This document shows positions 22,326 through 62,957 of a stretch of DNA of 64,000 bases, one piece after another. The stretch is from Saururus chinensis (taxonomy: Eukaryota > Streptophyta > Magnoliopsida > Piperales > Saururaceae): contig CP141143.1 in the NCBI GenBank assembly GCA_035235625.1, positions 5,686,501-5,750,500 of the forward strand, in the 5' to 3' direction. The translations under genes and the position numbers were made by a program. The notes under the pieces are model-generated. The model saw only the letters and a list, made by a program, of their open reading frames with translations, did not search any database and was not told the origin of the DNA. Position 1 is the first letter of the stretch. Each line of letters begins with the position of its first letter.

Positions 22326-23184
22326 TGTCATGCCTTGCTACACCCCCTAGCCTGAACCCGGTCTAAGGAGGCGGGACGTGATGCGACAAAGTGGAAATTG
22401 CATAAGACTTAACCCATTATGGGTGGTTCTCATTGAAGTACGCAACATGTGCTCTTTGTGCAAAAGTAAGTGACATAAGGTAAAAGAAATTAAATAGCAA
22501 TTTTAGTCCAATATAATACCCACAACATCTAAAGTGAACATAGCCTCAAGTCTTAGGGCTACAACATATCAAAAGTTATCTTAGGCTAACTGAAATATGA
22601 AATAAAGTCAAGTACAGGATTATCATATTACATGACAAGTCTAAAATAACCTAATAGCTAACTCTTTCTCATGGTGCATGCTGATCCTCAAATTCCACAT
22701 AAAAATCATCTGGAGCACCTACATAATACAACATAGAGCCCCAAAATAAAACTACAAACAAAAGATGGGTAAACTTAGCTCAATAAGAGTTTTAAAACAA
22801 AACACAAGCCTATAATAACATCACATGAATTCTCAATTTAAACACGCAAAACATATTCATTCTCTACACTTGCGCATTATGGGATAAATCACATTTCATA
22901 TACACATTCACACAACTTGTGCATCATGAAATAAATCATAGTCTATTTACACATTCATGTCACTTATGCATCATGGGTTCAATTAAAATTCATAACACAC
23001 ATGCACACCCTGTGCAATCATTTAAGTCTCATGGTTCATTCACATCCAGCATGAAATAAGTAACAATATTCACATTTACCCTGCATAATCAAGTATATTA
23101 AATCATATTTCATCCTCAATGAGCATTATAATCCATACACATACATAAACCTTCAGGTAAATGTCTTAGGGAGTCATAAACCCT
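22326..23184 (-). mobile_element. LTR of the TGTAAGG...GTGACA family, outer copy E (left part)
   Basis: It starts TGTCATGCCTTGCTACACCC and continues with a G-A-A-C-C-C-G-G-T-C-T-A-A-G-G-A-G-G segment, matching the same end of the copies at 26636, 54174 and 60335. The next 600 bases are the reverse complement of the corresponding part of copy D, including the region around 22750-22800. Its far end was not found; it should lie beyond 26640, after copy D, which is inserted in it. The right border of this family member is therefore unknown. Confidence 0.6.
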
Positions 23185-26100
23185 TGGTCATCTTTCAAAC
23201 CATGACTCTCTTTTACTTGGCTAATGGACCCACTTTTGGAGCTCATCAAGATAGTAGGTATTCATTATCCTCTATAAGATCTCTAACTTTAACTTGGTTT
23301 AATTTCTATTTAATTGTGTGTTATTTCATGGTTTATTTAAATTACTGGTTTGACTTAATTTTTAGGGTTAAGAGATTATAATTATGGTTTTTAATAAGGT
23401 TTAATTTATTTTTATAAGTTTTAATATCAAACTTAATTTATCCTATTTTTAGGGGTTTTATAGAAATCTTTTATTAATTAAGGGTGTGGACCCTACCATG
23501 GGGCCCACATCTATGATTGGATGGTGAGTAACTCACATGACCCTAAACTTTAATTATTTAAGATTAATGAGTTTTGGGCTCATTAAATTCATTTTTAGTC
23601 CTAAAATGACCCTGATTAGCCACTTAGGGCGTTATAATTCATTTTTACAGCCTAATAATTTGTATACATTACCCAACAACTTACTATATAAGGAAAACCC
23701 TATCCCGTTTTCCAATTAGGAAATGGTTATTATAGGAGGCAAGGTAGTGCCCTAACCCCAGTGCCAAAAGAAGAAAATCTGATTTAGGTAAACTTCTATC
23801 CTTCATCTTGTGGTTTTACTCTTAATCTCTCTTATCTTCACTTTCATTGAAATAATTTTTTAATTTTTTTATTAAAATACTATTTTTAATTTTAATTTCA
23901 AACCCAAAACGGGTGATTTTTATTTTTAAACAAAACAATTATATATCTACTTAATTTCAAGGTGATTTAAGCTTTATAGTCGATTTTAATTAAGTATTAA
24001 CTAAAACTCTAATTTTGGGTAGGGTTTCTTGATGAGTAAAATTTTATTTTCGATCCAAGGACTACTTAGAGGTAAGGGGATTTCATCTCATGTGGTTTTA
24101 TACATTGGATTGCATATTTGAAAAAGTTAAGTGGGTTCTTGCTTATTTATATACTTTCACGGTGGAATATTAAAAGTATGTCATTTATGTTTATTTTCTC
24201 ATGATTAAGCTTAAGAATGATTAGATCTACTATGTTTTAGGTTTGTATTTTGATATCATAAAGTTGTAGGGTTAATTTAGGATATACCTAGAATTTTTGC
24301 ATGTTTTTGATTTTTTCGAGAGGTTGAAGATGAACCAGAAATTGGGTATAAAGTGAATTGTTAAGGGAGTTTGAATGGCCAAACAACAGTTTTTGCTATT
24401 TTTGTATATTTTGGTCATTTCTTGTTTTCTTTCCATGAACCTAATTTCCTTATGATTAAAATGAGTTATTATTGTTTATAAATGTTGTTTTCATTGCATG
24501 ATGACCATCTTAAAATTTATGATTTAACTCAAGCATGATTTATGCTATATTTATTTAGTTTTAGCATGATATTCTACTTGTCCTACATTTATGTTTGTTG
24601 ACTACGTCATGATTTCTTGATGATTATAGTAGGTCTAACCATGATAATGTACATATATACTTGCACATATTATATTAATTGTTGGTAAATTATGCTCTAA
24701 TGTTCTAACTTAAGTATGGTGATGTTTATCCTTGTCTAAGTCTAGCATGATATTATACTTGTCTAAAACTCGTATTTTGATATTTTCTCTGCACTTGCTT
24801 CATGATTCTTGTAGGGTTGGACTATGATGAAATTATGGATGCAAATATATAACATTGATTATGGCTTATTCATGTTTCACATGTCGTAGCTTATACTTGA
24901 ACACTACCACTTATATACTCACTTGTGTAGATATTTGTGATGTTATTTGACACCAATGGACTATGTTTGATGCACATGTGGACTGATTTGAACATGTCTC
25001 TTGTATTTGGACTAATGTAACATTGCTTACGTATGTATTATGTTACATGCATAATAAAAATGACTTATAAATAAGATTAATCGTGATTAGCTATGTTTGA
25101 TCGATTAGATAAAAATTGAAAGTAATTGGTTGTTGGATTAATCGATCAGAGACTTAACAATCGGTTTTACGTCTGAAAGGATGGGGTTTTACATCCCTTG
25201 AGGACGAGTTTCCTCCTCGGGTTGAGAAGAATGGAATGCTATAACAAGTTATTTAATATGTTATCTAGACCTTGAGAATCTTTGATGATATGTTCATGTG
25301 CACCAGATGACTAGTGCTCGAGACTTCGGTCTTGATGAGCAGGGGTGCTAAGGGCTTTGGCCTTGATGAACAGTTGTGCTCGGGGTTTTTGACCCTAATA
25401 ACAAGTTTATTTCTCTCAATTTGTGAGACATTTATTATTTATTATTGCATATGTATGGAAGTTTATACTCATTGACACAGGTTGTGTAGGAACAATGAAG
25501 GTTATGTTATACATGTGGTTATGGTTGATGAACTTGATGTTGCAAGGTGAATGTTTTCATTGAGAAATAGATATGAATAATATGTTTATACTGAGAAATA
25601 TTTCATGTAGGATGTAATTATGATAATGAATTTCACATGTTTACACATGAAGTGTATGTGTGTTATGATCTATGTTTGAACTCATGATGCGCAAGAGGCA
25701 TGGGTATGTGATGATGAGATAATATGGGTTATAGCATGATATATAGGTAGTATAGCTATATGATGATGAGATAATATGAGTTATAACATGATATGTAGGT
25801 AGCATAGCTATGTGATAATGAGATATGTTATATATAGCACGATATGCATGTGGAATGAATATGTGATGATGAGATATGTCATATAGCATGATATGTAGAT
25901 AAATTGTACATAGTATGATATATAAGTGACGTGAGGATATGCTGATGAGATATGTTATAGATAACATAACATGTATGTGGTATAAGTAGATGCTTATGGA
26001 TTATAAATTATGACATAAATGCATAGGTTTGTATAGTTATCCCATGGTGAATGGGCATTGTGGTTGATTATATGATGAGTACTGTGTGATTATGTTTGTG

Positions 26101-26636
26101 TTATTTTAGATTTATTTTCTATATTAAAACCCTTGTTGAGCTTGTGTCTTATCCCTCTTTGTTTGTGTTTTATTTTGGGGTTACATATCATGCCATACAG
26201 GTTGTTTTGATGGGCTCTATATGGAGCGTGTAGCTGGTGATGATCCTTAGGAGGGGATGTATAGAAATTAAGGGTTTTATAATAGCTTTGATAGCATATT
26301 GTGTTAAGACCTTTATATACTTAATGATACTTCACACTTTTTTTAGCTGATGTTGGCTTAGACTCATATTAGCCATTGTGGGCTTAGACTTATACTTTGG
26401 CTATATGTGGGTTGTTTATGACTAAGTATGTGAGTTTGTGTGTGGACTAATATTTAATTAATAGTCATTTATTGTTCATTTTACTTTTGTACAAAGGTTA
26501 CGTGTGCAACTCCGTAGTGTTTTTCTCAAGGATGGGTTAAGTTTTTTGTAATCCAACAATACTTCATCGAGTTGCATGTCACTTCCTCCTTGGACTGTGG
26601 TTCGGCTCGGGGGATAGCGTGTGCTAGGGTGTGACA
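23185..26636 (+). mobile_element. Solo LTR of the TGTAAGG...GTGACA family, copy D
   Basis: About 3.45 kb, ends TGGTCAT...GGTGTGACA. A 4-base CCCT duplication flanks it (23181-23184 and 26637-26640), so the borders are less certain than in copies A and B. It sits inside copy E in the opposite orientation. A TATA box (ACTATATAAGG) at 23684-23692 lies about 500 bp from the left end, as in the other copies. A tandem array of roughly 55-60 bp units is at about 25660-25990. No coding domains and no second LTR are seen, so it looks like a solo LTR fossil. Confidence 0.65.
25660..25990. repeat. Tandem array of about 55-60 bp inside LTR copy D
   Basis: Units contain GATGATGAGATA and AGCATGATATGTAGGTA in 5-6 diverged copies. 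It occupies the same place in the LTR as the 57-bp arrays of copies A and B and resembles them weakly in sequence. Confidence 0.75.
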
Positions 26637-26640
26637 CCCT

Positions 26641-28400: not shown

Positions 28401-28468
28401 TTCAAACATATGCTTACTCCCTATCAATTTCTAACAGCTGCAAGATGAGGAACAACACGATATTGTTT

Positions 28469-28609: not shown

Positions 28610-28611
28610 AT

Positions 28612-34511: not shown

Positions 34512-34771
34512 TATCAGACCAACCAATTAAGACCATCAACTAGCCAACATCACAGCTTGTCTGTAACTATATTCTCAGTTTTCAATTCTATCTCAGCACT
34601 CTATGTTCTTCTCTCAAGTACCATTGGATTGTAACTACCCTGATATTTTTTATTCTTTTTATACAATGTCTATAATGTTGAGTCACACTCTCTATAATTC
34701 TTCTTCTCCATGGAATATAATGCATAGGATTCCTCACTGTTCTGTCCATCTTTGTTTGCTATAGTTTTATA
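34512..34771 (+). repeat. 5' LTR of the copia element
   Basis: 260 bp, aligned end to end with 48463-48722 and followed directly by the primer-binding site. Confidence 0.88.
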
Positions 34772-35088
34772 TGGTATCAATCACATTACGTTCTATGCCC
34801 TTTTTCTCTTAAATTGCATCCTCTCCACCATCCGCCCTCTCCTAGTCCTCTGTCTTTAATCCCCTTCCTAACTCCTCCTTTCCCTCCCTTCCAAACATTC
34901 AAGCTCTCATCTCTTGCAAACTTGACCATGAAAACTTCATCCTCTGGAAAACCCAATTCCTCTCTCTTGTATACAACTATGACACCATTCCGCTGGTCTT
35001 TTCACTACCAACCCAGAGCATACCAATGGTTCAAGACAGACAATCTCATCAAAAGCTGGCTCTTTGCTCCCATCTCACCCATTTTTCT

Positions 35089-36115
35089 TGTAGAGTGGCT
35101 AGCCAGTAGCGGAAGCAGTGGTAGGAGAGGTGGCGCACATAAAAATCAAATCTTTACACGATCTACTCCATAAGCATGCAACACTCATACAAATTAGCAA
35201 TAAACATGCAATACATACAATCAATCAAAGGGAGATAATTAAATATAGGAGAGATACGAACTGACTTGGGCCAAATCAGCCCCTTGCACGCCCTCCTTAA
35301 TAGATCTAGCACACCATCTATAGATCTACTCAATTAAACAATTAAACAAGAATTACCTTCAACAACTTATGTGTTGATCCCTTCTAGCCTTGATCTTGGA
35401 ATCAATTTCAACAAAGCCTCTCCTTGAAACCTCAAATCAGTGAGCTCCTCTTCCAAACTTGCACTACACACCGTAGGAGAAGGAAGGAAGAATCTAGAGG
35501 AAGAAGAAGGGGGCGGCCAACCCTTAGACAAGAGAAGGCCACTCACAACCAAGAAGAGAAGGGGGGGGGACTAGAGAGAGAGAGGGGAGATCTAGAATGA
35601 AATTCAATGAATTCCCTAGATCCACACAAGGGGGGGACGCCCCATCTCATTTGGGAATAAGGGAGTCTCCCTCTCAATTAATCCTCTTCCTTTCCATATA
35701 AAGCACAGGCCAGAAATGGACTTCCTCTCATGGGCTCACTGAACGGGCTCAAGACAATGGTCTTAAATACTAAAATACTGGCTTAACACAAAGAGTCATA
35801 CACAACGGGTGCGGGCTCTGTCTCACAGAGCTCGCGGAGGCCTGACCCCCCTGCACACGGCCAAGCCTGCGATAGGGTCGACCCCAACACCTAATTCGCG
35901 CGACTGGGCCCCACAATATGTAAATACACACCTAGATGTATGTCTACTGTACGTGTGTGACATGTGTGGGTCCCATTCGAATTATGTGTAACGAGGGATC
36001 CAATGGTGTTGGCGCATCCGCCCCCACCACCCTTAGACCACGTGACCCATACTGGTTCACCCGGATCGCGACATGTTGGACCAAACCGGGCCTGAGCCCA
36101 TACCATGGTCCAACA
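35089..36115 (-). mobile_element. Solo LTR nested in the copia gag region
   Basis: 1027 bp. On the minus strand it runs from TGTTGGACCATGG to a GGCTAGCCACTCTACA end, i.e. TG...CA. The flanks are TTTCT (35084-35088) and CTTCT (36116-36120), a 5-bp duplication with one mismatch. The copia gag sequence resumes on the far side. It holds CT/GA-rich and G-run stretches and no coding domain. The source family was not identified; it differs from the TGTAAGG family. Confidence 0.75.
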
Positions 36116-37309
36116 CTTCTTACTCATGTCATTTATCTATCTACCTCATGTCTCTTCTGGACTACTCTAGAATGTTTGTTTGCTCACACTCTGCTGCTTG
36201 TCGACAACTTCTTTGCCAGCAAATCCAGTCTATCAAGAAAGGAGACCGCTCTTGCGCTAATTTCATTTCTCATCTCAAAAAATCTTGACCACTCCTTGGC
36301 CATGATTGACTGCTTCTACCCAAAATCAGATCTCATCGACTTTACTCTCCAAGGTCTTTCCCCTTGTAACGCCCGAGATTTTTCATCCCTTTTTCTCAAA
36401 ACTCATAGAAATATTTTTTTCAATAACTCGGAGTCAAAACGATAAAATCAAAACCTGTTTATAATTTAAAACATCATACGGTTAAACATCGTACTGTCAA
36501 ATCAAATATCCTCAGGCGCTACCCGAAAACACACGTACGAATAAATTCTGCTATGATCATAGACTTTTAAATACAAATCACTCCCGGGCATCCCTGAGTA
36601 CAAGTCCCATAACAGTCCACAGACTAATCCAATCGAAAGTCCAGAATAAAACATCTTAAAGTCTCATCTCACTCAATACAGGAGATCGTGGCACAAATGA
36701 ACTCGCAGAGAGTCAAGCTGATACTTGAGTCAACGGGAATCAATCCACCGCTGAAACGAGCGTCCATCTCCAGGAGCTCTCCACACAACCTGCAAAACCT
36801 CCCGTGCAACGGGGCTAAAAATAGTAGGGTGAGTATTTTCATACTCAGTAGGAAAATACCCAGTAGGGGAAATCCCAAACGGTGAACTCACAAGTTCAAA
36901 AATGCATGCATCATGCAACTCAAACATGAAGCAAAAGCATATCATAATCATAAACATGCTCAAACTCATGCAAACATACCAAACGCACCATCGTGCCAAA
37001 ATCATATCAAGGCATCATCGTGCCAGAATCATACCGAAGGCACCATCGTGCCAAAATCATACTAAAGGCACCATCGTGCCACAGACATAGTACAAGCACC
37101 CTTATCCAGGGTCATACAACTTACTCCTACCACCGTACGCATACTCATACAACATACGCATACTTGTACGACCTTACTCGTACAATCGTATGCTCACTCA
37201 TACAACTTACACATACATGTATGACCTTACTCGCACAATCAGACTCGTACGACCTTACTCGTACAGTCTGCACAAAATCATACTTACTGTCTTACTCAGA
37301 ACCATATTC

Positions 37310-37520
37310 TCACAATCGTACTCATACTCTTACAGTCGTGCTCATACTCATACGCTTACAGTCTTACTCATACTCATACGCTTACAGTCTTACTCATACT
37401 CATACGCTTACAGTCTTACTCATACTCATACGCTTACAGTCTTACTCATACTCATACGCTTACAGTCCTGCTCATACTCATACACTTACAGTCCTGCTCA
37501 TACACATACAGTCGTACTCA
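37310..37520. repeat. 26-bp tandem array, about 8 copies
   Basis: The unit is close to CTCATACTCATACGCTTACA plus GTCTTA. The copies at 37345-37460 are almost identical, which suggests recent expansion. Confidence 0.88.
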
Positions 37521-37787
37521 CACTCATACAGTCATACTCATAATCGTACACATAACAACGACCACTGAAGCTCATTACAACTAATAAGCTCCAGCGTCGA
37601 AATGGAAAAGAATGCCACTGGGGCAACACCTTAACCTCCGGGGAGTGACTAGACGCCATGGACTTTTCCGAAGGTAAGGCACACCAATGCTCATGGGGCA
37701 CTGGATCAAACAGGTAAGAGTAGATCCATGATACTACTTACCTGAGCGCACAAACATAAACACCCACACATAAGGGGTCATACAGTT

Positions 37788-37885
37788 GCCCACCATAATG
37801 GGTCTTATAGTGCCAGAGATTTGCCCACCATAATGGGTCTTATAGTGCCAGAGATTTGCCCACCATAATGGGTCTTATAGTGCCA
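37788..37885. repeat. 35-bp tandem repeat, three copies
   Basis: Copies begin GCCCACCATAATGGGTCTTA at 37788, 37823 and 37858 and are essentially identical until the third ends. Confidence 0.92.
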
Positions 37886-37962
37886 TTGCCACTCTTGGGC
37901 GTAAAACATACAAAGGCCACTTGGGCGTAAACGCATGCGCCACTCTTGGGCGGAAACATACA

Positions 37963-38210
37963 ACGCTCTCAACAGAGCATCAAACGTCTGGGCTTACACA
38001 GCACACAGACCAAATCAGAAACATACGTCGCTCTCAGCGAGCATCGCACGTCCGGGCTTCATACAAAGCACGCGTACAAACTCGAACGTACATCGCTCTC
38101 AACGTAGCATCAAACGTCCGGGCTTATACAAAGACGCGGACCAAATCGAAACAACGTCGCTCTCGCCAGCATCGTACGTCCGGTGCTCTACACAAAGCAC
38201 ACGTACAACA
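37963..38210. repeat. About 64-bp tandem repeat, four diverged copies
   Basis: Each copy contains CGCTCTC, an A/C-rich GCATC, then AACGTCYGGGCTT and ends with a GACCAAATC-like or CACGTACAA-like segment. Spacing of the CGCTCTC motif is 63-66 bp. Confidence 0.8.
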
Positions 38211-38939
38211 TCCCGCAGGATAAACACCATGGCAAGACATGATAAACGCTCGGCCAACTCATCAGCGGCCAGCTCAAACACGGAACTTAATCCGTCGAAC
38301 CCTCAGGTCTCAAACTCACAATGCTATCATTAGCTGTGCTTATAATTCAAGTTTGAATTAAGTATATTATGCGGTACAATTATGCCACACAAACTCTCAG
38401 TCCTCGACTGATCAAACTGAAGCTGAGCCCGATCGAAACCCAAGTTCGTCAGGGCAGCAGACTTCACTTACCCGTCCACATCATGGACAAAAACTCATCG
38501 TACACCAAACTCTTACAGTCTTACACACTTCGCCATCCATCTTATGGCCAAATCCTCTTACACTGACATCCTCAAATATCGCTCCTCAGAGTCAACCCAG
38601 TTGTCGCCCTCTTACTTATATCTCACTTATTATACTTACTTTTTACTTCATAATCTGTACGTTATGCTTGTACAATTATGAACACTCTTACTGTCTGACA
38701 AACGCCCAACATATAATCCACCCCAAACTGATCCATTCTAATCCTTGCCCGTCATACTCTTATCCTCTGTCATACGCTTACACAACTGTATCCAAATCCA
38801 GACAAAGCTTCTGTCACCTCTTACTGTCCATCGCCCATATCTCTGCCCACATACACTTACACACATCCAAAGCATAGGCAAAATGCCATCATACATACGT
38901 ATGTCTCACACATACGTACAACATACACATACGGTCATA

Positions 38940-39160
38940 CGTACATAACTTACAAACATGCATGCTAGCCGTCACTAGCACATGCATACATCAAACGTAC
39001 ACGCTAGTCATCTCTAGCATGTGCACACACACATTCATACATACTTCAAACATGCATGCTAGCCATCACTAGCACATGCATAACCCATACATAGCATACT
39101 GACATATTTGCTAGCCATAGCCAGCGCATACATAATCCACATCCATAAAACATGCATACA
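38940..39160. repeat. GCTAGC/ACTAGC palindrome cluster
   Basis: CATGCTAGCCGTCACTAGCA and three diverged versions recur at about 60-80 bp spacing, each able to fold on itself through GCTAG...CTAGC. Confidence 0.65.
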
Positions 39161-42100
39161 TCTCATGCATATCAATCATACCATACAATCATGCTTACAC
39201 GCACCTCATGCAATCGGATCGTTACTTAACATCCAAGCATGGAATCATACAATCCTAGCATGCTGCTACTCATTCAAAGCATGCTTCATGAAATTACGAG
39301 TTCAAAGCTCCCCTACCTCGTAATCATGACGTTCGATGGCGAGCACACGACGGTGGCGGCGTCGGCGGCGGAGTTGGCAGTCAAAACTGTTGCCTGGCTG
39401 AGAGAGCTGCTGTCCCGAGGATTTTAGGATGCGCCGGAACTATCACGGCCAAACAGAGAGTCAGAACTCAATGCGGTAAAACCCGCAATCCACGGCGACA
39501 CACTAGGGCGGCCGGGAGAAAAGTCGTGCCAACATATGTGGCGGTGCGACCAGAAGTCGAGGGTGTACACTGAAGATCGGCCGGTGGCTAAAACGTGCTC
39601 AGCCGGCCACAAGACGTCGAAATCGGCCGTGGACAGCACCCAACGGCGACGATTTCGGTCAACAAATGCCCACATAAGGGCGGAGAGCGTGGGGCAACGC
39701 TCGAGAATCAAAGTAGAGGTGGAGGACGGCTCTAGTGGTCAACTCCACTCGGTGGCAAAGCCAACCGATGGTTAGGCGGCACGAATGCGGCGCCTAAACC
39801 CAGAAGTACACGCGTGGCCACATGCACACGCGGCCCAAAGGGCGGGGGAAATGGGGCGACTCAAGGCCCACAAAAGCCAACAGGGCTAAGGCCCTTAGCT
39901 GTGGCCAATCTAAGCGGCAACATCGCCGATCGCCACCCACAACCAATACCCATGGTGCGGGCAGCTGTGCATCTCGCACGGTATAGGGCAATGGGAGGGT
40001 TCAAGGTCGTGCAAAGGCTATGAGGCCGTCACTGGCCAAGGCCTGAGCAGGTGAACTCATCCACCTTCTGTCAAGGTAAGACATACAATCTCTTGCCCGA
40101 GGCCGTCCGGTACCGACTGCGTAAAATGGGCAAGAGGGGTCAGCGGCACACATGCCGGTAAGGCGGATTAGCTGCAGCTACGGGCCGCAAGGCTGAACAA
40201 GACCCAGAGGGTGGCCCACTGGTGTCACCGGGCTGGGGCGGAGCCAAACTACGGTCTGCTAAATCAAATCCGGCGTCCGACTGATAACGTCAGTCACCAC
40301 GTCCAAAACGGACGTAGGCCAAAAATAGGGGACGACCGGAGAAAACCCGTAAGGGCGGAGCGGCCATGGGGGCGATGGCTGAATCAGGCACGGAGGTGTA
40401 GTCCACTGCCTTCGCCGGAGCAAGGCGGGACTGGGGGAAGGCCGAATCGGCCGCAGATCACCGCCGGCGGCCACTGTTTGCCCAAACAGTCCGTCGGCGG
40501 AACAGTGAACAGAGGGGGAAAGAGGGTGGGGCGGCGGTGCCGAGGCCCACCGGGCCGGGAGGAGGGGCTCCTCGCCGTCGCCGGCCCAAGGCGAAGCCGT
40601 GGCCGGCCGGTCGGGCCGAGCCGGCCCGTGGCGGCGGCGGAACGGCGTGAAACAGTCGGGCGGCGAAATAGGGCAGCAGAGAGAGGGAGCGGGACGGCGG
40701 AGCTGGGGCCGTCCGGGGCCGGGGGGAGTCTCCTCCCGCCGTCGCTGGCCCATGGCGGAACCATGGGCGGCCGGCCGGCCCTCGCCGGCTCACGGCGGCG
40801 GCGGAACCGCACAAATCAGAAAAGGGGGCTCACCGAAAAAGTGGGGGCGGAGCGGCCGTGGGGCCGGGACGGCAGCTCCCCTGCCGTCGCACGGCCAGGG
40901 CGGAGCCGGTGCGACGGTCCAACGGCCTGCCGGCGGCCAGCGGCGGCTGGGCACAAGGAAAAGGCGGAATGGGGTGGGCGGCGGTACTGTTCATCCAGCC
41001 GGGTTCTGGATCGGGTGATCCCGACCCGATCCGAATTTTCCTGTTTTTTTTTTTTCTTTTTCTTTTTCCAAACGTACGCTCAACGCGCGTTAACCCACTG
41101 GTTACGCGTCGAACCTCCAAAATTCGCGCAGTAAGTGCGCAGCGAGGCCCGTGGCCCGCGACTAAGCCCCACACCCGACTCTACAGGTATAAATACGGGG
41201 AAAAGACACAAATACTCATACGCTGAAACGTCACATTTTCCTGCCGAAAAATAACCAGAAAAATGGCAGAAAAATCCCAGAAAATCGTAGAAAAATCAGG
41301 GACCTTACACCCCTGACTATGAAGCTTTTGTTACTACCATCAACACTCGCGGCACCACCACCATCTCATCTGAGGGCTTCTTTGCTATGCTCCTTGCCCA
41401 AGAAACTTGTATTGAGCAACTTCACTCCTCATCTGCTCTACTTTCCTAGCCCTCTGCTCTAATTGCTACTACATGTCCTTCCTATCTCCCCCCTCGTAAC
41501 ACATCTCGTGGTTATCACAACAATCAGACCCCTAGCTATCGTGGTCCTCCTCGTGGTTGTGGCCGTGGTTCCTTCAACTGTGTCCCTAGTCGATCTAGAG
41601 CTCTGCCATCCCCTACACTAGACGTTCTACGTTGTTCACGTGCACCTCCACCTACAAACCTTGTTGTTGTTTGTCAAATTTGCAACTCCCATAGTCATGC
41701 TGCAATGATATGCCCATTTTGGCATATGAGTGACTTCGTTGCCAAGTCCATTGTCCCTCCATTTGTAGGGCTCACTCTTACACAACCAGCTTGTGGCCAA
41801 CGAATTCCAAATACAATTGCTACACATCACATGGTAAACCATATTTTACTACAACATTCCACCTATACAATTGTACAAACCATGTCATAGTGGGTAATGA
41901 CACTCCTCTTCCCATTCATCGCACCGGTAACATCTCTCTTCTCCTCTCCTCTACCTCTCTTTCCTTATCCAATGTTTACCACTTCCCTCCGCTCACCACC
42001 AATCTCCTCTCTGTCTCTCAACTCACCCAAGATAATCACTGTTACATTAAATTTCACTCATTGTGCTTTCTCATTAAAAACTCTACCTCTCATCAGGTCC

Positions 42101-43738
42101 TTCTCTAAAGTCTCAGTAATGGGCATCTCCACTCACTCTCCACCTCCAACTCAAATCCCATTGCTCTCCACTCCGCCAAAGCATCAGTAGATCATTAGCA
42201 TCTTCGCTTTGGTCATGCCTCCTTTGAAGTTTTGCAACTACTCAAGTGTTTTGGACATCTACCATTGAAGTCTCCCCCCACCATATCATTTTGTAACAAT
42301 TGTGCTGCAATCAAAGCCACCAAGCTTCCTTTTAATTCATTGTCATTTCTTACTTCTCAGCCTTTAGAACTTATATTTATTGATGTATGGGGCCTTGCCC
42401 CTACCCCTGCCATCAATGGAACAAAATATTACATTACATTGGTTGATGCATACTCTCGATGTACTTGGATCTTTCCACTTCATCGCAAATTAGATAGCTT
42501 CATCATATTTCAATCATTTCATCCTATGGTTGAATGTCAATTTAACTGCAAACTCCAAAGACTCCAAAGTGACAATGGCGGTGAATTTACAAGCTCCCAA
42601 TTCTCAGCTTATCTCACTAGTCATGGCATCTCTCTTTGGTTCAGTTGCCCGCACACACCAGAACAAAATGGCATCCTCGAAAGAAAACACTGTCACATTG
42701 TAGAGTTAAGACTCTCTATGATACAACATGCTGCCCTGCCCCTTCAACTTTGGCCAAACGCCTTCCTAATTGCAGTATACATCATTATCCATCTTCCATC
42801 GAAGTCCATATCCAATCTCTCACCCTACCAAGGTCTCTATAAACTTCTTTCTGATTACTCTCATCTTCTCATTCTAAGTTGTGCATGCTTTCCTTACCTT
42901 CGTCCTTATAACACTAATAAGTTCCAACTTTGCTCCACTCTTTGTATCTTCATTGGTTACTCTCCTCACCACAAAGGCTATCACTCTCACCAGTTGTATC
43001 TTCATCAGTAGACATGTTGTCTTAAATGAATCTTTTTTTCCCTAAACGATCACAATCTCTCCCCCATCAAAAACACACTTGTCTCCCTTCTTTCTTCCTC
43101 CTCCACCCACACTAAACCCCAAACCCTCCTTCTCTACTCTTCACCTACACCCTCTTTACCCAACACCTCCCCTCATCCACTTGCATCTCCTTCTCCTTCT
43201 ATTAGTTCATCCTCTTCCTCTCCCATTAGCCTCACCCCGTCTCCCTCTCCACTTCCTCCTCCCAAAACTCATCCTATGATTTCCCGCACAAAAGATGGTA
43301 CCCACCGACCAAAACCTCTTTCACACTACCACTGCTTCCATAGACTTTGTACCCACATTCTACTCTCAAGCTTTCAAATTACCTCACTGGCGCGTTGCAA
43401 TGAAAACACAATTCAATGCACTGATGTAGAATCACACTTTGACTCTTGTCCCAACTCCTTCTAACAAGACCATCATCATCAACAAATGGATATTTAGAAT
43501 TAAACACAATTCGGACGAATCTGTTGATAAGTTCAAAGTCCACCTAGTTGCAAAGGGATTTCATCAAGAATATGGTCTAAACTACAATGAAACTTTCAGC
43601 CCAGTCATCAAGCCTCCAACACTGCAACTAAATCTGTCTTTTGCAATTGCAAATTTTTGGCAAATTTGGCAACTCAATGTACAAAACACATTTCTGCATG
43701 GTGACCTCACTGAAGACATATACAAGGCTCAGCCTCCC

Positions 43739-46700
43739 TATAAGGACCCTCATCTCTAAACCAGTTTTTGGTTTTCTTTAATTATCGGTTATCGTGAGGT
43801 TAACACATTTTCTGATTTATTCGGTGGTTTCAAAAATAAATGGTGTTTATGATAGTTTTAATAAAAATTAACTTTAATATTAGTGGTTTTAAGTGATTTT
43901 GAATCAAATGTGAATTTTTGAGATTTTTCTGAATTTTTACAATTTTTTCAAAAATTAAGGTTTTAGCAGGACACTTGTGGGCCCCACCGTCGAAATTTAA
44001 TTTTTGGACCAAATAAACCCAAACATCAACTTAAGCCCATATAAAAATTTTCAGAATTTTCTTAGACTTAATTAGTGCTCAAATTTGTAAAATATCCATT
44101 TTAGCCTACTTTTTCTATTTACACCCTATAACTTACCCATACACACCCCAAAGCCTACTATAAAAGGCCAAACCTGAGCCATTCCCATTTTGGGAATACG
44201 CTGAGGAGGAGAGGTCAGGCCTAATCCCCAATTAGGCCCAAATTAGAAGGTGTTTAAGGTAAACATATTCTAATTAAGCACTAAATCCTAACTTTCTTCT
44301 TAATCTCTTCTAAATCTACCATTTTTCCTTTGTTTTAATCCATTTTTAAACACCAAAACTACTGATTTATATTTTTACTATAAACCCTAGCTCTCAAGAT
44401 CTGATTTTTATGTTCAACAAGCCCTAGATCTAAGTTTTTAATTAGGGTTTTCTTTGTTAAATCGGTTTTAATGGAGTTTAATTCAAACTTTATGTCTTTG
44501 TAAGGTTTTTAAGAAGGGTGACCATCAAATCCAAGTCTAATCAAGGGATAATGTAATGGACCTTCAAATTTTCAGTTTGTCTATGGTAAAACTCTTGATT
44601 TTGTGGTTTATTTTGAATGGAGTTACTTGATTTAATGTGTTAATGACATGATTAGAAAATGGTAATCTTTAATCCCGATTTCATAGGGTTTTATCTTGTT
44701 ATGATGTAGTTTAGCATTCTGGAAGTCATGGTGGACTTTTGATGGTATTTAGGTTGTTAGATGATGATTTGAAGTGTTATCAATGGAGTTTCAGTTTGAA
44801 ATTATGAAAGGAATAAGAAGGTCGAATCTGCCTTGTTAGCGTTCGAACAGCTCTGCAGGGCATTCGAACGGCAACACTGCAGTTCTGACATTTTTCAGTT
44901 TAGCCGATCGAACGGCCTGCTGGGTGTTCGAATGACCAAACTATGAATTTGAAATTTTCCCATTTAGCAGATCGAACAGCCTTCTGGGCGTTCGAATGGC
45001 TACACAGCAGAATGTTGTTCAATTTGCATAATATTTATTTCAATGATTCTACTTTAACTTGCCAATTTTATATGAATGTGGAGTGTTTTGAGCTATATTA
45101 TATTACTGGAAAGACATGTTATTAAGGTTATGAAGTTGGGATATATGATTAGAGATTTGTGGAATGACTTATGTTTTGTGGCATGATGTTGAAATTGTCA
45201 TCTTGAAATTATGAATGGTTGATTCTTTATAGTTAAGCATATTTTCAGTAAGACTACAACCTATTAATGGATTGATTTGCATAATAGAATGTGGTTAGTT
45301 GATGTGTAGATGTTGGTGAATGTCATGGCTTAAGGATGAAATGAATGATCTTATATGTGTTTAGCCTTTGTGGTTGAGTTTTGATTTGAGTTATGATTTT
45401 AATGATTCTTCTCCTATGATTTCCGCTGTAATTCATGATTGGATGTTAATTCACATGTGTAGTGTGGTAGTTAGTTAATTTCAAGCATGTTGAAATGCAT
45501 TGAGTGAAGTGCTTCTACTAGGTACATACAGAGTGGGGGTTAAATGATGATGTTTGGAGTTTGATATTATGATTATGAATGATGCATTAGGGGCTGATGA
45601 GAGCACTTATCATGGATTAGGATTCATGTATTCCTTGCCCACGTATGTACCATGCTGCATGCGTCATGAAAATAGATTTCCAATTGAGGCTTCATCGAGG
45701 GTAAGCCAATTTGACCAATTGGATGCAATGTGGTGAAATTGTGTGCCAGATTAATCGGTCGTAGATTAATTAAAAGTTGATTGGTCTGAAAGGACATGTT
45801 TTGATTTGAGTTCCTGTGTGGAACGAGGGCGCTCCCCAGGTTGAGTCTAGAGGAATGGAAGTATGTGGGGACGAGTTGTGTACTTGTCTTGCAGATTGTG
45901 AGAATGTTATTATGAGTGTCATCTAGACCCTAAGAATCCAATGTGGTATGTCGTGTGCATCCGCTACCACGTGTTCTAGGGTTTCTTGTGTGAAAACTCG
46001 GGTTCTCCCCACAGCAGGAGATGTCCCTGGGCGAACACCCCTGCTCTAGATTCTCTGTGTGAGAATGGGACATCTTCGGTCAGGATCGTCCAAGGCAAGC
46101 AGTTTTTAGGGATTGACAACCCCGATCTTTCTTGATTCTTGTGTAGAATTTTGGACATGACACGCCTTCGTGGCCTTGTCGATGTTCCCGTCTATGTGAC
46201 ACTAAATTGTGATTACTCCTTGATGGAGGATGTTATGATGTGATGCTTGAGGGAATATGTATGTTAGAGATACATTCATGCATGTTGTTATGATATGATG
46301 CATGGGGGAATATATATGTTAGAGATACATTCATGCATGATGATATGATGTGATGCATGATGGAATATGTATGTTAGAGATATATTAATGCAGGTTATTA
46401 TGATGTGATGCATGATGGAATATGTATGTTAGAGATACATTCATGCAGGTTATTATGATGTGATGCATGATAGAATATGTATGTTAGAGATACATTCATG
46501 TAGGTTATTGTGATGTGATGCATGATGGAATATGTATGTTAGAGATACATTCATGCAGGTTGTTATGATGTGATGCATGATGAAATATGTATGTTAGAGA
46601 TACATTCATGCAGGTTGTTATGATGTGATGCATGATGTGATATGTATGTTAGAGATACATTTCATGTAGGATGTTATGATGAGAATGACACTATGTGGAT

Positions 46701-47332
46701 TATGCACTATGATGCAGGTTTAGGTGATGTGTATGTGTGATCAGAAAATGATGCACATTGTAAATCTTTGATCTAAATAATCATATTGTTATGCTATCAT
46801 ATTTTCGATGATGATAGTTATATTAAAAACCATTGCTGAGTTTGTTAAACTCACCCCTCTTTCTTATTTTTTTGATTTGGGGCTACTTGGTGCGACACGC
46901 AGACGGACAGGATCTCCTCTTTGAAGAAAGGTCAGAGATGACTTGGATGTGATCGTGGAGATCGTTGTGTGACTTATTTTCCTTTGGTTTTATGCTTTAT
47001 GTTTAGAACCTTTGTGTAGGGTTTTTTGTTGGATTATGTCACATTTTACAGTTGTGTTGCTTAAGACTTATTTTGAGCCGGTGTGGGCTATAGTTGACTA
47101 AGCATGTGGGTTTGAGATTAGTTGTTTACTTTGTGATAAACAACTCTCTTTCTTTTCTTCTTATTTACTCTTGCTCAAAGAAATGTGCGTACTCCGTATT
47201 TCTGTTAAGTTGCCCGTGGTTAGGGTTAAGTCTTCCGCTAAATCATTTCTCAATTTCCCTTCGTCGCCCCCGCGCGCTTGAACGGCCCTTGGACCGGGTT
47301 AGGCTCAGGTCGGGCATCACTAGGGCGTGACA
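43739..47332 (+). mobile_element. Solo LTR of the TGTAAGG...GTGACA family, copy A, nested in copia RT
   Basis: 3594 bp flanked by a perfect 5-bp duplication CTCCC (43734-43738 and 47333-47337), splitting the copia reverse transcriptase. It begins TATAAGGACCCTCATCTC (first base pair of the family's TG altered) and ends ATCACTAGGGCGTGACA. A TATA box ACTATAAAAGGCC at 44158 lies about 420 bp in. A cluster of TTCGAACG-type motifs is at 44825-45000 and a 57-58 bp tandem array at 46228-46682. No coding domain, so it is taken as a solo LTR fossil. Confidence 0.85.
46228..46682. repeat. 57-58 bp tandem array inside LTR copy A, 8 copies
   Basis: The core TATGTTAGAGATACATTC recurs eight times at regular spacing, with GATGTGATGCATGATGGAAT between. 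The copies are nearly identical, so the array expanded recently or is being homogenised. Confidence 0.92.
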
Positions 47333-48462
47333 CTCCCATCTTTCCACGCCCTTTTTATGTTGGCTCCGTTTGCAAGCTACAAAAGGCTTTATACAGCCTC
47401 AAGCAGGACCCCGAGCATAATTCTAAAAAATAAATACCTTCCTCCACCATCTTTCACAACAGTCGGGTAGATACATATCTATTTATATACCAATCCCACC
47501 AAGGAATTGTTCTTCTTCTACTCTATGTAGACAACATTCTCATCACCGGAAACAACACTCCACTTATCCAGCTTCTTCTTGCTCACCTCCACTCTCAATT
47601 TTCCATCGACAACCTTGGTACTCTACACTATGTCCTTGGAATCTCTCATACTACCAATGGATTCCATCTCAACCAATCCAAGTATGCGCTATCCATACTA
47701 AAACAAGTAAATCTTGACAACTGTAAGCAATGATTCACACCTAGCAGCCTCAAGCCACCCAAAACACCAAACCAATCTAACAAAATTCAGACAACTAGTC
47801 GGCAGCCTACAAAACCTTACATTCACCTGACCAGACATCTCCTTCTCTGTGAATAGAGTATGCCAATAGATGCAATCACCCATCATCCATGATATGATTG
47901 TAGCCAAACATATACTTTGCTATGTCAACGGAACAATTCATCATGGCCTCTCCATCACCCCATCCTCCACCAACACTCTCACTGCTTATTCAGATAGTGA
48001 CTAGGCAAGCAGCCCCACTAATAGAAGATCCACCACCGACTCTTGCATCTTCTTAGGCCACAACCTCTTCTCCTGGATAGCTAGAAAGCAACCAACAATT
48101 TCAAGATCTAACACTAAAGTCAAATAAAAAGCATTGGCCACTACTGTAGCTGAAATCATCTGGATCTAGTTCTTACTTCTTGAAATCGGCATCCTCTGTT
48201 CAACACCACCAACACTATATTGTGACAATCTCAGCACCACCTATCTTACCAGTAACTCAGTTTTTCACTCCCGCTCCAAATACATTGAACTCAATCATCA
48301 CTTTATTCATGAACAACTCACTAACAAGTTTTCTCAAGTTGCATCTCATTCACAGTTCAAATCAGCAAGCTGATATCTTCACCAAACTTCTCACTGCCTC
48401 TCAATTCTTCAATCTATGCTACAAGCTTCAAGTGCTTCCACCACCTTCAGCATGCGGGAGGG

Positions 48463-48722
48463 TATCAGACCAACCAATTAGGACTATCAACTCACCATCA
48501 TCACAGCCTCTTGTCTGTAACTGAATTCTCAGTTTGCAATTCTATCTCAGCCATCTATGCTCTTCTCTCAAGAACCATCAAATTGTAACTACCATGATAC
48601 TTTTGATTCCTTTTGTACATTGTCCATAAAGTTGAGACACGCTCTCTATAATTCTTCTTCTAAATACAATGTATGGAATTCCTCATTGTTCTATCCATCT
48701 TTGTCTATTATAGTTTTTTATA
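48463..48722 (+). repeat. 3' LTR of the copia element
   Basis: 260 bp, preceded by the polypurine tract at 48456-48462. Confidence 0.88.
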
Positions 48723-53705: not shown

Positions 53706-53708
<3 letters not shown>

Positions 53709-53799: not shown

Positions 53800-53803
<4 letters not shown>

Positions 53804-54173: not shown

Positions 54174-57100
54174 TGTCACGCCCCGACACTGTCCAACTTG
54201 AGCCGAACCCGGTCCAAGGGCCGGTCCAGCGCATGGGGGTGACGATATTGAAAACGGTTAAAGAAATTATAGAAGACTTATGCCTCACCTACGGGCGGTC
54301 TAATAAGCAGAGTTATGCACTACTTTGAGTAAGAGTAAATAAATAAAGCAAAAGAGGAGTTAAACTCTAAAATTAAACCACAAGTCTTAAACCCATATAC
54401 TAATAATCCAAAGCCAACATACTTAGCTCAAAACAAGGTCTCAAACAAATCTAAAGACATAATATATTACAAGTCTAAAACAAGAACCACTCCACAAGGT
54501 GTTCTAATATCATAATAAAATAATCAGAAAAATATGCAAAGTCTAGAGGCCTCCACACCTAATCCCAAGCTCTCCCCGAGCGTTCTTCATACAGAGGATC
54601 CTATCTGATTGCATGTCACGCCATGCAGCCCTAAAATAAAACAAGAAAAGTGGGGTGAGTATAAAAACTCAATAATGGTTTAAATATAACTATAATAATC
54701 AGAAAACACGACAGCATGGCAAAGTAATAATTCAGATCCAAAATTTACATGTTATACCAATTTTTAATCATGTAATTATATCACATAAACTTGCATAATA
54801 GTGTCTCAACCACACAATTTTAGATTATGCATTCATATCACATGAACCTATATAATAGTGTCTCAACCACACAATTTCACATAAACCTGCATAATAGCGT
54901 CTCAACCACACAATTTTTTATTATGCATTCATATCATATAAACCTGCATAATAGTGTCTCAACCACACAATTTCTGATTATGCATTCATATCACATAAAC
55001 CTACATAATAGTGTCTCAACCACACAATTTCACATAAACCAGCATAATAGTGTGTCAACCACACAATTTCACATAAACCTACATAATAGTGTGTCAACCA
55101 CACAATTTCACATAAACCTACATAATAGTGTCTCAACCACATAATTTTTGATTATGCATTTATATCGTATAAACCTGCATAATAGTGTCTCAATCACACA
55201 ATTTTTAATTATGCATTCATATCACATAAACTTGCATAATAATGTCTCAACCACATAATTTTACATAAACCTGCATAATAGTGTTTCAACTACACAATTT
55301 CTGATTATACATTTATATCACATAAACGTGCATAATAGTGTCTCAACCACACAATTTCTGATTATACATTTATATTATATAAACCTGCATAATAATATCT
55401 CAACCACACAATTTTTGATTATGCATTCATATCACATAAACTTGTATAATAGTGTCTCAACCACACAATTTCTGATTATGCATTCATATCACATAAACCT
55501 GCATAATAATGTCTCAACCACACAATTTTTGATTATGCATTCATATCACATAAACCTGCATAATAATGTCTCAACCACACAATTTCTGATTATGCATTCA
55601 TATCACATCTTCATCCATTCTGCATGATAAACATGTCAAACGCATGATACATAATCATGCATAACATTCATAATACACATGCATCAATACAAATGGTGAA
55701 TGCCTTTATGAAGGAGTAAACACAAGTATTGCCACACATGCGGGACATGGTCAAGGCCATGAAGGCGAGACGTGGTCCGGTTTCCACACAAGAAACATAA
55801 GAAGTTGGGGTTGTCAACCCCTAAAGATGCTCACCCTAGACTATCTTGGCTAAGGATGTCCAATTCTCACACAGAGAACCTAGAGTAGGTGTGTTCGCTC
55901 AGGGACATCTCCTGGGGTGGGGGAGAGCCCGAATTTCTACATAGGGAACCCTATAACACATGGTAACCAGTGCACGAGGCATACCACTTTGGATTCTTAT
56001 GTTCCAGATGACAATCATGATAATCTCATCCGCAAGACAAATACACAGCTCGTCCCCACATAACTCAATTTAACTAGACTCAACCCAGGGAGTGTACATT
56101 TTTCACATAGAAACTTAAATCAAAAACATGTCCTTTCAAACCAACCAAGTTTCGATTAATTCACCAAGCAATTAACCTGGTATGCAATCTCATATACAAT
56201 CGATCAATTCCGGTTAAACATTGGTAAAACTTTGTTCATGAATACCGATCCATGATGCATGATATCATGACACATCCGTGAGCAAGACCTACGTGGGTTC
56301 CAACACATGGAACATGCTTCTAATCAGTCCCCTCATGCATCATAATCAAGCATAATTAACTACATTATCATACTAGATTCCCCATACGTGTGTGTATTCA
56401 TGCATATTCTAAGCACATGACCAATGTTTTGACATAAACTCATAATGCAATATACACTTGCTTAAACACATTCAAAACAATAATTCCTAACTGAAATCAA
56501 AGCAAAATCTACCGTAAAGCTTAAATCTATCCATGTGAAATCGTACACTCACTCCTACAAGCATGATTTTTCTCCACAGTAAGCCATAACAAGATCACAT
56601 CAATTACGCATAAACCATTCTCATTATAAGAGAACACATCTCATCATTTTCCATATAATATCCTTGCTGAAGATATACTCTAATCACAAGAGTTCCAACA
56701 TTCAAAGGTTTAAGGTATTTCAATATCAATATGCACAATTATCAACATATAATATAATACCATATAACAACACTTAAACCAAATCCATAAACCTCCATCA
56801 TCAATTTCACACCTCGAGTGGCCTAATTTCAACATATCATACCTCCCATAAACATTATAACCATTAAATAAAGTAAGAACATTGAAATAAGCATAATCTT
56901 TGAAGATTTGAAGACCCATAATAAAACTGAGATTTGAAGACCCATATCTTCTTTCTTGGTTTGGTTCGGAATAAACCTTCAATCTTTTCCAACACCTTCC
57001 AAAAATATAATTTTTAAGTTAACACACATCTAAACTCGATTAAGCTTTGAAAAATCAAAAGTAAACCCTAGTGCTTTAGAAGCATAAAAATGAGATTTTG

Positions 57101-57739
57101 AAGATTAGGGCTTAGAAAAGAAGAGCAAAATAGTAATTTAATGCTTTCAAAATGGATTGAAATGATGGGGAAAGACAAGATTAAGAACATTTTAAGAAAA
57201 CCCTAAAAATTAAGCAAAGATTAAGCTAAACTCACCTCTAATCGTTTCCCTTTTGGGCCTAATTGGGGATTAGGCTTCAATCTCCTAGCTAAGCCTATTC
57301 CTAATTTGGGAATGACATAGCCCTTTCCCTTTTATAGTGGGTTACACCTAATAGAAACTTGGGGTAAAAATAAAGTTTTTAACTAAAATTAAGAAATTTG
57401 GTAATTTAACCCAAAATTAGGTCTACAAAAATTCTAAAACTTTTTATAGTGTCTTCCAATGATGTTTGGGGCATTTTGGTTTAAAAAACCTAATTTTGTC
57501 AGTAGGGCCCACAAGGGGGTCCTGCCAAACCCTAAATTTTAAAAAATTGGTAAAAAATAAAAAAATTCCAAAAATTCAGATTTGACCCAAAATCACTTAA
57601 AACTTATAAATGTGAAGTTAATTTTTATGAAAACCTTTAGAAACCCCATTTATTTTAGAAAACTACCAAATTTAATCAGAAAATGCTTAAACCACACGAT
57701 AACCGATAAATAATCCGGTTTAAAATGAGAGTCCTTACA
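54174..57739 (-). mobile_element. Solo LTR of the TGTAAGG...GTGACA family, copy B
   Basis: 3566 bp flanked by a perfect 5-bp duplication TAAGT (54169-54173 and 57740-57744). On the plus strand it runs from TGTCACGCCCCGACAC to GAGAGTCCTTACA. A TATA box read on the minus strand (CTATAAAAGG, 57328-57337) lies about 405 bp from the right end. The 57-bp array is at 54775-55615. There is no coding domain and no partner LTR. Confidence 0.88.
54775..55615. repeat. About 57-bp tandem array inside LTR copy B, about 15 copies with short variants
   Basis: CATAATAGTGTCTCAACCAC recurs throughout, usually with a 57-bp period and sometimes about 38 bp where the TTATGCATTCATATC segment has been lost. Reverse-complemented, the unit aligns with the 57-58 bp unit of copy A (shared GCAGGTT, ATGCAT, GTTNGAGANAC). 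Confidence 0.92.
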
Positions 57740-57744
57740 TAAGT

Positions 57745-59410: not shown

Positions 59411-59893
59411 TGAAGTAGCATTGAGTTACTCACGAAGAGAGCATTGATTCAGGGAAGACTACTGTCTATCAAAATAATCAAGTAGCTCAAATACATTAGT
59501 CTCATGGCACTACTTAAAACCATATTGCACTAAACCAGATAGATACATGAAACTCAACAAATGTATTGCACAATTGCAAACTCTTGCACTTGTCATGGCA
59601 ATCTTTAGGAAACCATGCAGAGTCAAAGCACTGATATGAAAAAACTACCCCTTGAAGTAGCATTGAGTTACTTGTGTACATATCATTGATTTTAGGAAGA
59701 CTATTATCTTTAGAAATAATCAAGTAGCTCAAATACACTAGGCTTTCATAGCACCACTTAAAACCGTATTGCACTAAACTAGATATATACATGAAACTCA
59801 GCAAATGTAATGCACAATTGCAACTCTTACATTTGACATGACAATCTTTAGGAAATTATATTCAAAGCGCAAATATGAAGAAACTACCTCTTG
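59411..59893. repeat. About 242-bp tandem duplication
   Basis: TGAAGTAGCATTGAGTTAC begins both copies (59411 and 59653), and AATCAAGTAGCTCAAATACA and GCACAATTGCAA recur in each. The copies differ at many positions, so the duplication is not recent. Confidence 0.85.
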
Positions 59894-59989
59894 AGGGTTT
59901 CAAAGCCTTCTCCCTAATTGGTAATGCTCCAGGTGTTTCCCCAAACCCAAATCTCCAAGGGCTTTCTAGTGAAGTTTCGTATTTCAACC

Positions 59990-60334: not shown

Positions 60335-62957
60335 TGTCACGCCCCGGTGATGCCTGACCCGAGCCGAACCCGGTCCAAGGGCCGGTCAAGCGCGAGGAGG
60401 TGACGAAGAGAAATTGAGAAACGATTTAACAGAAAACATAACCCTAACAATGGGTGATTTAATAGAATTATGGAGTACACACAATCCTTTGAGCAAGAGT
60501 AAATAAGAAGGAAAGAAATAAAGTTGTTTAACACAAAGTAAACAACTAATCTCAAACCCACATGCTTAGTTAACTATAGCCCACACTGGCTCAAAATAAG
60601 TCTTAAGCATCACAACTGTAAAATGTGACATAAATCCAAAACAAAGAACCCTACACAAAGGTTCTAAACATAAAGCATAAAACTAAGGGAAATAACTCAT
60701 ACAAAGATCTCCACGATCACATCCGAGTCATCTCTGACCTTTCCTCAAAGAGGAGATCCTGTTTGTCTGCGTGTCGCACCATGCAGCCCCAAAACAAAAC
60801 ACAAGAAGGAGGGGTGAGTTTAACAAACTCAACAATGGTTTTTAATATCACTATCAACATCGAAAATATGATAGCATATCAATATAATCATTCAGATCAA
60901 AGATTGGCAAGGTGTATCATTTTCTAATCACACATACGCATCACCTAAAACTGCACCATAGTGCATAATCCACATAATGTCATTCTCATCATAACACCCT
61001 GCCTCAATTGAAAATCTATTTTCATGATGCATGCAGCATGGTACATACGTGGGCAAGGCATACATAAATCCTAATCCATGATAAGTGCTCTCATCAACCC
61101 CTAATGTATCATTCATAATCATAATATCAAGCTTCAACATCATCATTAAACCCCACATGTGTGTATGTGTACCTAGTAGAAGCATTTCACACAATGCATA
61201 TCAACATGCTTGAAATTAAACTCACTACCACACTACACATGTGAATTTTCATCTAAACATGAATTTCAGCGGAAATCATAGGAGAAGAATCATTGAAAAC
61301 ATAATTCAAATCAAAACTCAACCACAAAGGCTAAACACATATAAGATCATTCATTTCATCCTTGAGTCATGACATTCACCAACATCCACACATCAACTAA
61401 CCACATTTATCATGCCAAGTCAGTCCAATAATAGGTTGTAGCTCTACTGAAAATATGTTTAACCATAGGGAATCAACTATTCATAATTTCAAGATGACAA
61501 TTCCAACATCATGCCACCAAACATAAGTCATTCCACAAATCTCTAATCATATATCTCAACTTCATAACCTCAATAACATGCCTTTCCAGTTGGATAATAT
61601 AGCTTAAAACACTCCACATTCATATAAAATTGCCAAGCTCAAGTGGAATCATCGAAATAAACATCATGCATTAGAACACAATTCTACTGTGTACCCGTTC
61701 GAACGCCATTCAGGACATTCGATCCGCTAAACAGGAAAAATTCAAATTCACAGTTTGGTCGTTCGAACGCCCAGCAGGCCGTTCGATGGGTTGAATTAAA
61801 AATTTGTCGATCCGATAGTGTTGTTGTTCGAATGCCCAGAAGGGCCATTCGAATGCCAACAAGGCAGAACTGACCATTTTCTTCCTTTCGCAAATACAAA
61901 CCGAAACTCTATTGGTAACACTTCAAATCAACATCTAACACCCTAATTATCTTCAAAAGTCCTCCATGACTTCCAGAATGTTAAACCATATCATAATAAG
62001 ATGAAAGCCTATGAAATCGGGATTAAAAATTATCATTTTCTAATCATGTCATTAACACACTAAATCAAATAAATCCATTCAAAATAAGCCAAAAATCAAG
62101 AGTTTTACCATGGATAAACTGAAATTTCAAAAGTCCATTACCTTATCCCTTGATTAAGCTTGGATTGATGGTCACCCTTCTTGAAAACCTTACAAAAACA
62201 TAGAGTTTGAATTAAACTCCATTAAAATTGATTTACCAAAGAAATTCCTAATTAAAACTTATATCTAGGGCTTGTTGAACATAAAAATCAGATTTTGAAA
62301 GCTAGGGTTTGTAGTAAAATACAAATAAGTAATTTTTGATGTCTAAAAATAAATTTAAATAAAGGGAAAATGGTAGATTTAGAAGAGATAGAAAAAAAAG
62401 CTAGGGTTTAGTGCTTAATTAGAGTAGGCATACCTTAAACATTTTCTAATCCGAGCCTAATTGGGGATTAGGTCTGACCTTTCCTCCTCATCCTATTCCC
62501 AAAAATAGAAATGGCTCAGGTTTGGCCTTTTATAGTAAGGGTTGGGGTGTGTATGGGTAAGTTATGGGGTGTAAATAGGAAAAGTAGGCTAAAAAATGGG
62601 TATTTTACAAATTTGAGCACCAATTAAGTCTAAGAAAATTCTAAAATTTTTTGTATGACCTTAAGTAGATATCTGGGTTTATTTGACGCAAAAACAAAAA
62701 TTTCGACGGTGGGGCCCACAGAGGTCCCGCCAAAACCCTAATTTTCAGAAAAATAGTAAAATTTTAAAAAAATCCCAAAAATTCAAATTTGTTTTAAAAT
62801 CACTTAAAACCACTAATCTTAAAGTTTATTTTGGTTAAAATAATTATAAATACTATTTATTTACAAAACCACCGAATAAATAAGAAAACACGTTAACCTC
62901 ACGATAACCGATAATTAAACAAAACCAAAAACCGGTTTAGAGATGAGGGTCCTTACA
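60335..62957 (-). mobile_element. Solo LTR of the TGTAAGG...GTGACA family, copy C, inserted in a LINE
   Basis: 2623 bp, on the plus strand TGTCACGCCCCGGTGATGCC to GATGAGGGTCCTTACA. The flanks are TAATC (60330-60334) and TATTC (62958-62962), a 5-bp duplication with one mismatch; the related LINE in REC intron 21 has TTATTC at the matching site, which supports TATTC as the original. A TATA box on the minus strand (CTATAAAAGG, 62526-62535) lies about 425 bp from the right end. TTCGAACG-type motifs are at 61690-61870. It lacks the 57-bp array, which explains most of its shorter length. Confidence 0.85.

Follow-up and report, generated by a model that had tools for sequence, protein, structure and literature searches.

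The question raised by a stretch of 64,000 nucleotides from Saururus chinensis, positions 5686501-5750500 of contig 4 in a 516-Mb assembly of 11 contigs and referred to here as the window, is whether the large repeated units crowded into 40 kb of it are complete mobile elements or the remains of longer ones. The initial annotation had recognized five copies of one large LTR family, apparently present only as solo LTRs, with a non-autonomous, LARD-like family as the alternative. Our analysis makes it very probable that five of the units, here termed copies A, B, C, D and F, are solo LTRs, and that a further unit, copy E, is a fragment of such an LTR, all derived from several related Ty3/gypsy chromovirus families, most likely Tekay/Del, whose interior was lost by recombination between the two LTRs.

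Copies A (43739..47332, plus strand, 3594 bp, TATAAGGACC...GGGCGTGACA), B (54174..57739, minus strand, 3566 bp) and C (60335..62957, minus strand, 2623 bp) lie where they had been placed, with boundaries that are base-exact from ends and flanks. Copy D, a distant solo LTR on the plus strand, begins 88 bp later than proposed and spans 23273..26636 (3364 bp), since the profile match begins at 23273, the TATA motif then lies at the common distance of 413 bp and the flanks read TCCTC/CCCTC, all of which rule out the former start at 23185. Copy E (22326..~23117, minus strand) is a U5-side fragment nearest to D; a second end, sought downstream through its flank GGGTT, was not found. The largest copy, F (36365..41309, minus strand, 4945 bp, TGTAAGGTCC...GGGCGTTACA), had been missed; its ends on the minus strand are TGTAAGGTCCCTGA...CTCGGGCGTTACA, with CCCCT at both flanks, and its 5' part is rich in GC and CpG. 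Exact 5-bp target duplications thus flank A (CTCCC), B (TAAGT) and F (CCCCT), while the flanks of C (TAATC/TATTC) and D agree at four of five positions. For 5-mers paired at random within the window, a perfect match has p=0.0013 and one with no more than a single mismatch p=0.020.

Short motifs recur at corresponding places in these units. All five instances of GGGYGTKACA in the 64 kb, where shuffles predict 0.34, coincide exactly with the U5 end of a copy (A, B, C, D or F), and the GGG of the type A U5 attachment site (-8 to -10) is present in the same five copies and absent from E. When one mismatch is allowed, the U3 pattern TGTAAGGWCYCT is found four times in the window, in A, B, C and F, against 1.01 expected from shuffles, of which 1 in 100 reached a count of four; the units A and D start with TA, not TG. 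CTATAWAAGG is likewise found four times (0.38 expected), once each in A, B, C and D at 421, 404, 424 and 413 bp from the 5' end, and was absent from copy F in the motif search of the window.

Judged by their sequences, copies A to F do not represent one family. Identity over aligned columns is 88% between A and C, which places C in the same family as A, 66% between A and B, 62% between B and C, and about 50% between D and each of these, the latter measured with 88 extra bases at the start of D, which has only short colinear patches in common with A, B and C. At E 1e-3, BLAST connects F with no other copy on either strand, and a profile built from A to D finds a single weak match in the repeats of F (39074-38890, E 0.001). 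With identities that fall from 88 over 66 and 62 to about 50%, and with an F that shares little beyond its ends, the assumption of one large family was too strong. Tandem arrays occupy corresponding parts of A (55-bp units, 46223-46681) and B (57-bp units, within 54758-55608), and copy C is without the whole stretch that holds them. B and C, 2.6 kb apart on the same strand, were also considered as the LTR pair of a single element, a reading that is rejected on their 62% identity, their differing duplications and the empty site of C described below.

The surroundings of the copies record how they arrived. A decayed Ty1/copia element (34512..48721, plus strand) with two LTRs of about 260 bp (34512-34772 and 48463-48721, 83% identical) and an integrase (42199-43011) was the target of both F and A. 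Copy A interrupts its reverse transcriptase, with RVT_2 profile positions 1-102 to the left and 143-236 to the right of A; the 32-amino-acid piece between the two RVT_2 parts gave no match by itself. Copy F splits a copia reading frame upstream of the integrase, which ends in GLSP on the left and resumes with PDYEAF on the right, in a region that, from motif and position, we take to be gag; in Pfam the only gag match near F is Retrotran_gag_3 upstream of it (34846-35106, E 0.026), and the open reading frames adjoining F have no gag match. The same copia region received a third insert (provisionally 35109-36112, minus strand), whose start TGTTGGACC presumably resembles a copia LTR. For copy C, an uninterrupted paralogue of its target repeat (15743..16598, minus strand) carries the target once and is an empty site, whereas C itself is flanked by TAATC and TATTC. 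The units were inserted whole, with a 5-bp duplication, at target sites, as is directly observed in the copia element and in the repeat with the empty paralogue.

That the window lacks an internal domain of a parent element, as had been stated, is borne out by a Pfam search (E 0.01) of 116 stop-to-stop open reading frames of at least 70 amino acids between 20131 and 63772, which found no Ty3/gypsy domain; the retroelement domains in this region are all of the copia type (RVT_2, rve, SH3_retrovirus, Pol_BBD and gag_pre-integrs). The canonical TGGTATCAGAGC, with at most two mismatches, occurs four times in the window against 4.3 expected, and this lack of an excess is what is expected for solo LTRs. 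A tRNA scan and an Rfam scan of the window gave no match. Elsewhere in the window, an open frame on the plus strand (31275-32840) encodes, according to Pfam, a plant AAA-ATPase whose lid domain is At3g28540-like; a multi-exon gene, pieces of which lie on the plus strand at 7500-20200, presumably resembles the plant CLU/REC family, three of its open reading frames having no Pfam match; a degenerate array of units of about 105 bp lies at 451-1130 and a 240-bp tandem duplication at 59410-59894.

Parents of the A type exist in the same genome. Of 40 A-type places read at their ends (20 loci and 20 further stretches, picked by likeness to A and not at random, with nested units around some of them left out of the count), 35 units have both ends, a number which includes outer and inner units of two nests, and 33 of these are single while two are linked to a primer site. 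In both nests (L046, L050) an A-type solo LTR sits within an A-type solo LTR, each with its own exact duplication. The flanks of the 33 single units agree at five of five positions in 23, at four in seven and at three, two and one in one unit each, compared with one exact match in 1056 mispaired flanks; a convincing duplication is missing in three (L021, L026, L041), and a second end is missing in seven of the 40 places (L029, L047, L048, L049, L052, L056, L058). At the two linked units (L027, L028), which are followed by AAGTTTTTGGTATYGGAGCAC, the primer site reads AAGTTTTTGGTAT[C/T]GGAGCAC, which we take to be similar to a tRNA-Met primer site. Exact A-type junctions of U5 and primer site (GGCGTGACAAAGTTTTTGGTATC) number 57 in the genome and zero in the reversed control. 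The candidate numbers 9575, 9571 and 9558, being nearly equal for three different queries, were discarded as copy counts. The junction pattern also matched four viral contigs, which is taken as chance since none has similarity to A to D better than E 0.08; three are without direct repeats at 1e-10 and one (L004) has two short ones. Copy C had no match among plasmids.

Followed from the primer site, three of four loci show a second A-like LTR past the interior (L034, L059, L060). The most complete reading, assembled from L027 and L034, which were read apart, is an 11.6-kb element on the minus strand of contig 10 (C10:766061-777627) with, in this order, a 5' LTR (773872-777627, 3756 bp), a primer site, a zinc knuckle with RVP_2, RVT_1 with RNase H, H2C2 with rve, an SH3-like integrase end, the polypurine tract AAAAGGGGGAGGA and a 3' LTR (766061-769326, 3266 bp), and with CCACC at both flanks. 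Its LTRs share 95.4% identity in 3265 aligned sites (K=0.048); with the rate of 1.3e-8 given in the available text of PMC7251063, this would correspond to an age of about 1.8 My. L033, downstream of L028, has matches to Retrotrans_gag and to the chromodomain profile PF00385 (26.6 bits with a cut-off of 25.1), with no second A-like LTR in its 9.9 kb, or in the 9.7 kb past its primer site. L059 and L060 resemble the stretch of L033 that holds the integrase end and chromodomain, and in both the interior is followed by another A-like LTR: L059 has matches to protease, reverse transcriptase, integrase and the chromodomain region, then an A-like LTR (77%) and another primer site, and in L060 reverse transcriptase, integrase and the chromodomain region are accompanied by an A-like LTR that is shortened. 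The two primer-site junctions of L059 (C8:11145200-11153200) point in the same direction, 7.86 kb apart with interior and LTR between them, an arrangement that is probably a product of unequal recombination.

Since protease, reverse transcriptase/RNase H, integrase and the chromodomain region are found jointly in these loci, L033, L034, L059 and L060 together are classed, by predicted domains, as chromoviruses. The order protease, reverse transcriptase, RNase H and integrase of a Ty3/gypsy chromovirus occurs in L034 and in L059. The rve matches of L033 (31.4 bits) and L034 (26.2 bits) lie under the curated Pfam cut-off of 32.6 bits, no chromodomain was found in the scanned open reading frames of L034, and the evidence for a predicted chromodomain is the match in L033 together with the similarity of L059 and L060 to it. 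Paired parents with coding capacity are thus observed in the same genome for the A type, in direct pairs around primer site and pol genes and in one case with polypurine tract and matching duplications, the arrangement that the initial annotation had suggested searching for. Its reading of the window copies as solo LTRs gains accordingly, with 33 single units and two linked ones in the sample.

The B and F types were read in the same manner. Among the best eight loci of 40 scored B-type candidates, five, the window copy included, have both ends and no primer site, with flanks that agree at five of five positions twice, at four twice and at three once; the primer-site-linked end at one locus (L007) belongs to an adjacent copy, and the stretch examined at the remaining two contains no ends. 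For the F type, 29 candidates were scored, copies matched in several pieces being left out, and each of the seven other copies whose match covers the whole 4945 bases of F without a break is a single unit; their flanks agree at five of five positions in five cases and at four in two. The F-type U5 18-mer AAAATCTCGGGCGTTACA has 1766 exact occurrences in the genome (control 0), and 45 of them are followed by TGGTAT within 9 bp, 43 of these at 2-3 bases. If each junction stands for a two-LTR element, the number of solo or truncated F-type U5 ends is at most 1676, or about 37 for each junction, an upper bound because decayed primer sites are missed.

Numbers of this kind speak for an origin without any interior, in which LTR-only DNA circles or aberrant cDNAs with one LTR integrate directly and many single LTRs never had an interior. 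The 1766 F-type U5 ends against 45 junctions far exceed the mean ratio of solo to full-length elements in a survey of 15 species (regression intercept 2.69 in the available text of PMC7251063). However, recombination between long LTRs yields an identical anatomy and is the established route, the discussion of the same survey, in the text available, cites a link of the solo/complete ratio to LTR length (PMC7251063), exact-match counts miss decayed primer sites, and the U5 ends are not all proven solo LTRs, so that we regard such direct integration as very unlikely. The same slender chance is given to its stronger form, in which single LTRs, foremost the 4.9-kb F type, would be the mobile form, packaged or circularized as LTR-only molecules and integrated by the chromovirus integrase, and many solo sites would never have held a full element.

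The LARD-like family offered earlier, in which the unit of 2.6-5 kb would itself be the complete form and be moved in trans by another element, would agree with the preponderance of single over primer-site-linked units in the samples and with a window without chromovirus interior, a feature that the copies do have in common with LARD and TRIM elements. Such elements need two LTRs around a long non-coding interior, though, and a comparison of half against half in A to F revealed no terminal direct repeats within single units, with one match of 15-16 bp each in A and C and zero in B, D, E and F. As the A-type LTR moreover flanks a coding interior elsewhere in the genome, which contradicts this origin for the A type, a LARD-like family is unsupported and in our judgement highly improbable. 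A DNA transposon bounded by terminal inverted repeats (TGTAAGG/TGTCACG) and making 5-bp duplications, which the two ends, as imperfect inverted repeats of each other, might suggest, deserves next to no credence, since LTRs normally have inverted ends, as in Retrosat2/RIRE8 with 5'TGTCACACCC-GGGCGTGACA3' (available text of PMC3485330), and since pairs of A-type units in direct orientation enclose a primer site and retroelement genes, which refutes it for the A type and with it the earlier proviso that the copies might never be paired and carry ends recognized by a DNA transposase.

Recombination between LTRs, a known route to solo LTRs, therefore remains the preferred origin of the window copies, and its course can be pictured as follows. 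Insertion of a complete element by a chromovirus integrase with a 5-bp target duplication came first, a step shown by the targets, the duplications and the A-type parents, of which the one measured has 11.6 kb. The two long LTRs of each element would later have recombined, removing one of them together with the whole interior, and the end state would be a single LTR within the original target duplication. The single-LTR anatomy and the duplications are observed in the copies themselves; that recombination between LTRs caused the loss of the interior is what we infer from them. Plant solo LTRs formed by unequal LTR recombination have the same characteristics, a single LTR without interior between matching target duplications, and the present ones differ only in degree, with 33 against two among the A-type units sampled and no more than about 1676 against 45 for the F type.

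Among chromoviruses, the long LTRs and the pattern of the attachment sites most likely point to Tekay/Del. According to the available text of PMC4029996, Del/Tekay elements have LTRs of 1143-4831 bp, the U3 site TGTAACACCC, which is the commonest U3 attachment sequence in maize and sorghum, and a type A U5 site with GGG at -8 to -10; Tekay is a clade of chromoviruses, and duplications of 5 bp are the rule (available text of PMC6317226). Like members of this group (Del1, Retrosat-2, Legolas, Peabody, Bagy-1), the window copies have kilobase LTRs (2623-4945 bp), a type A U5 site with GGG in A, B, C, D and F, a U3 that begins with TGTAA in B, C and F and 5-bp duplications, and one A-type parent locus has a predicted chromodomain. 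They differ in their U3, TGTAAGG[A/T]C compared with TGTAACACCC of maize and sorghum, and F with 4945 bp is slightly longer than the longest surveyed LTR (4831 bp, PMC4029996). The copies had been called very large for LTRs, which for this lineage the published range does not support. Rice Retrosat2, RIRE8 and RIRE3 have LTRs of about 3 kb as well, and those of Retrosat2 and RIRE8 end with GGGCGTGACA as here but start with TGTCACACCC (available text of PMC3485330); all three carry an extra ORF0. For D, E and F a chromovirus lineage seems likely, in the case of F as suggested by its ends, duplications and primer-site junctions. A text search of the literature with the end sequences retrieved, among the matches listed, no element with both ends and no description of these families.

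The kind of element is therefore already known, and these families add new members to it, of a size that is normal for the lineage; the one notable quantity is the excess of solo over paired copies. One stretch of 40 kb, along with samples over the 516-Mb genome, indicates the extent to which long-LTR chromoviruses are reduced to solo LTRs. Within this stretch the short-LTR copia relic keeps both of its LTRs while its long-LTR intruders are solo, which, as one case, fits a role of LTR length in the loss of the interior. Counting primer-site junctions relative to LTR ends, as is simple in the A and F families, yields a measure that could be compared between species.
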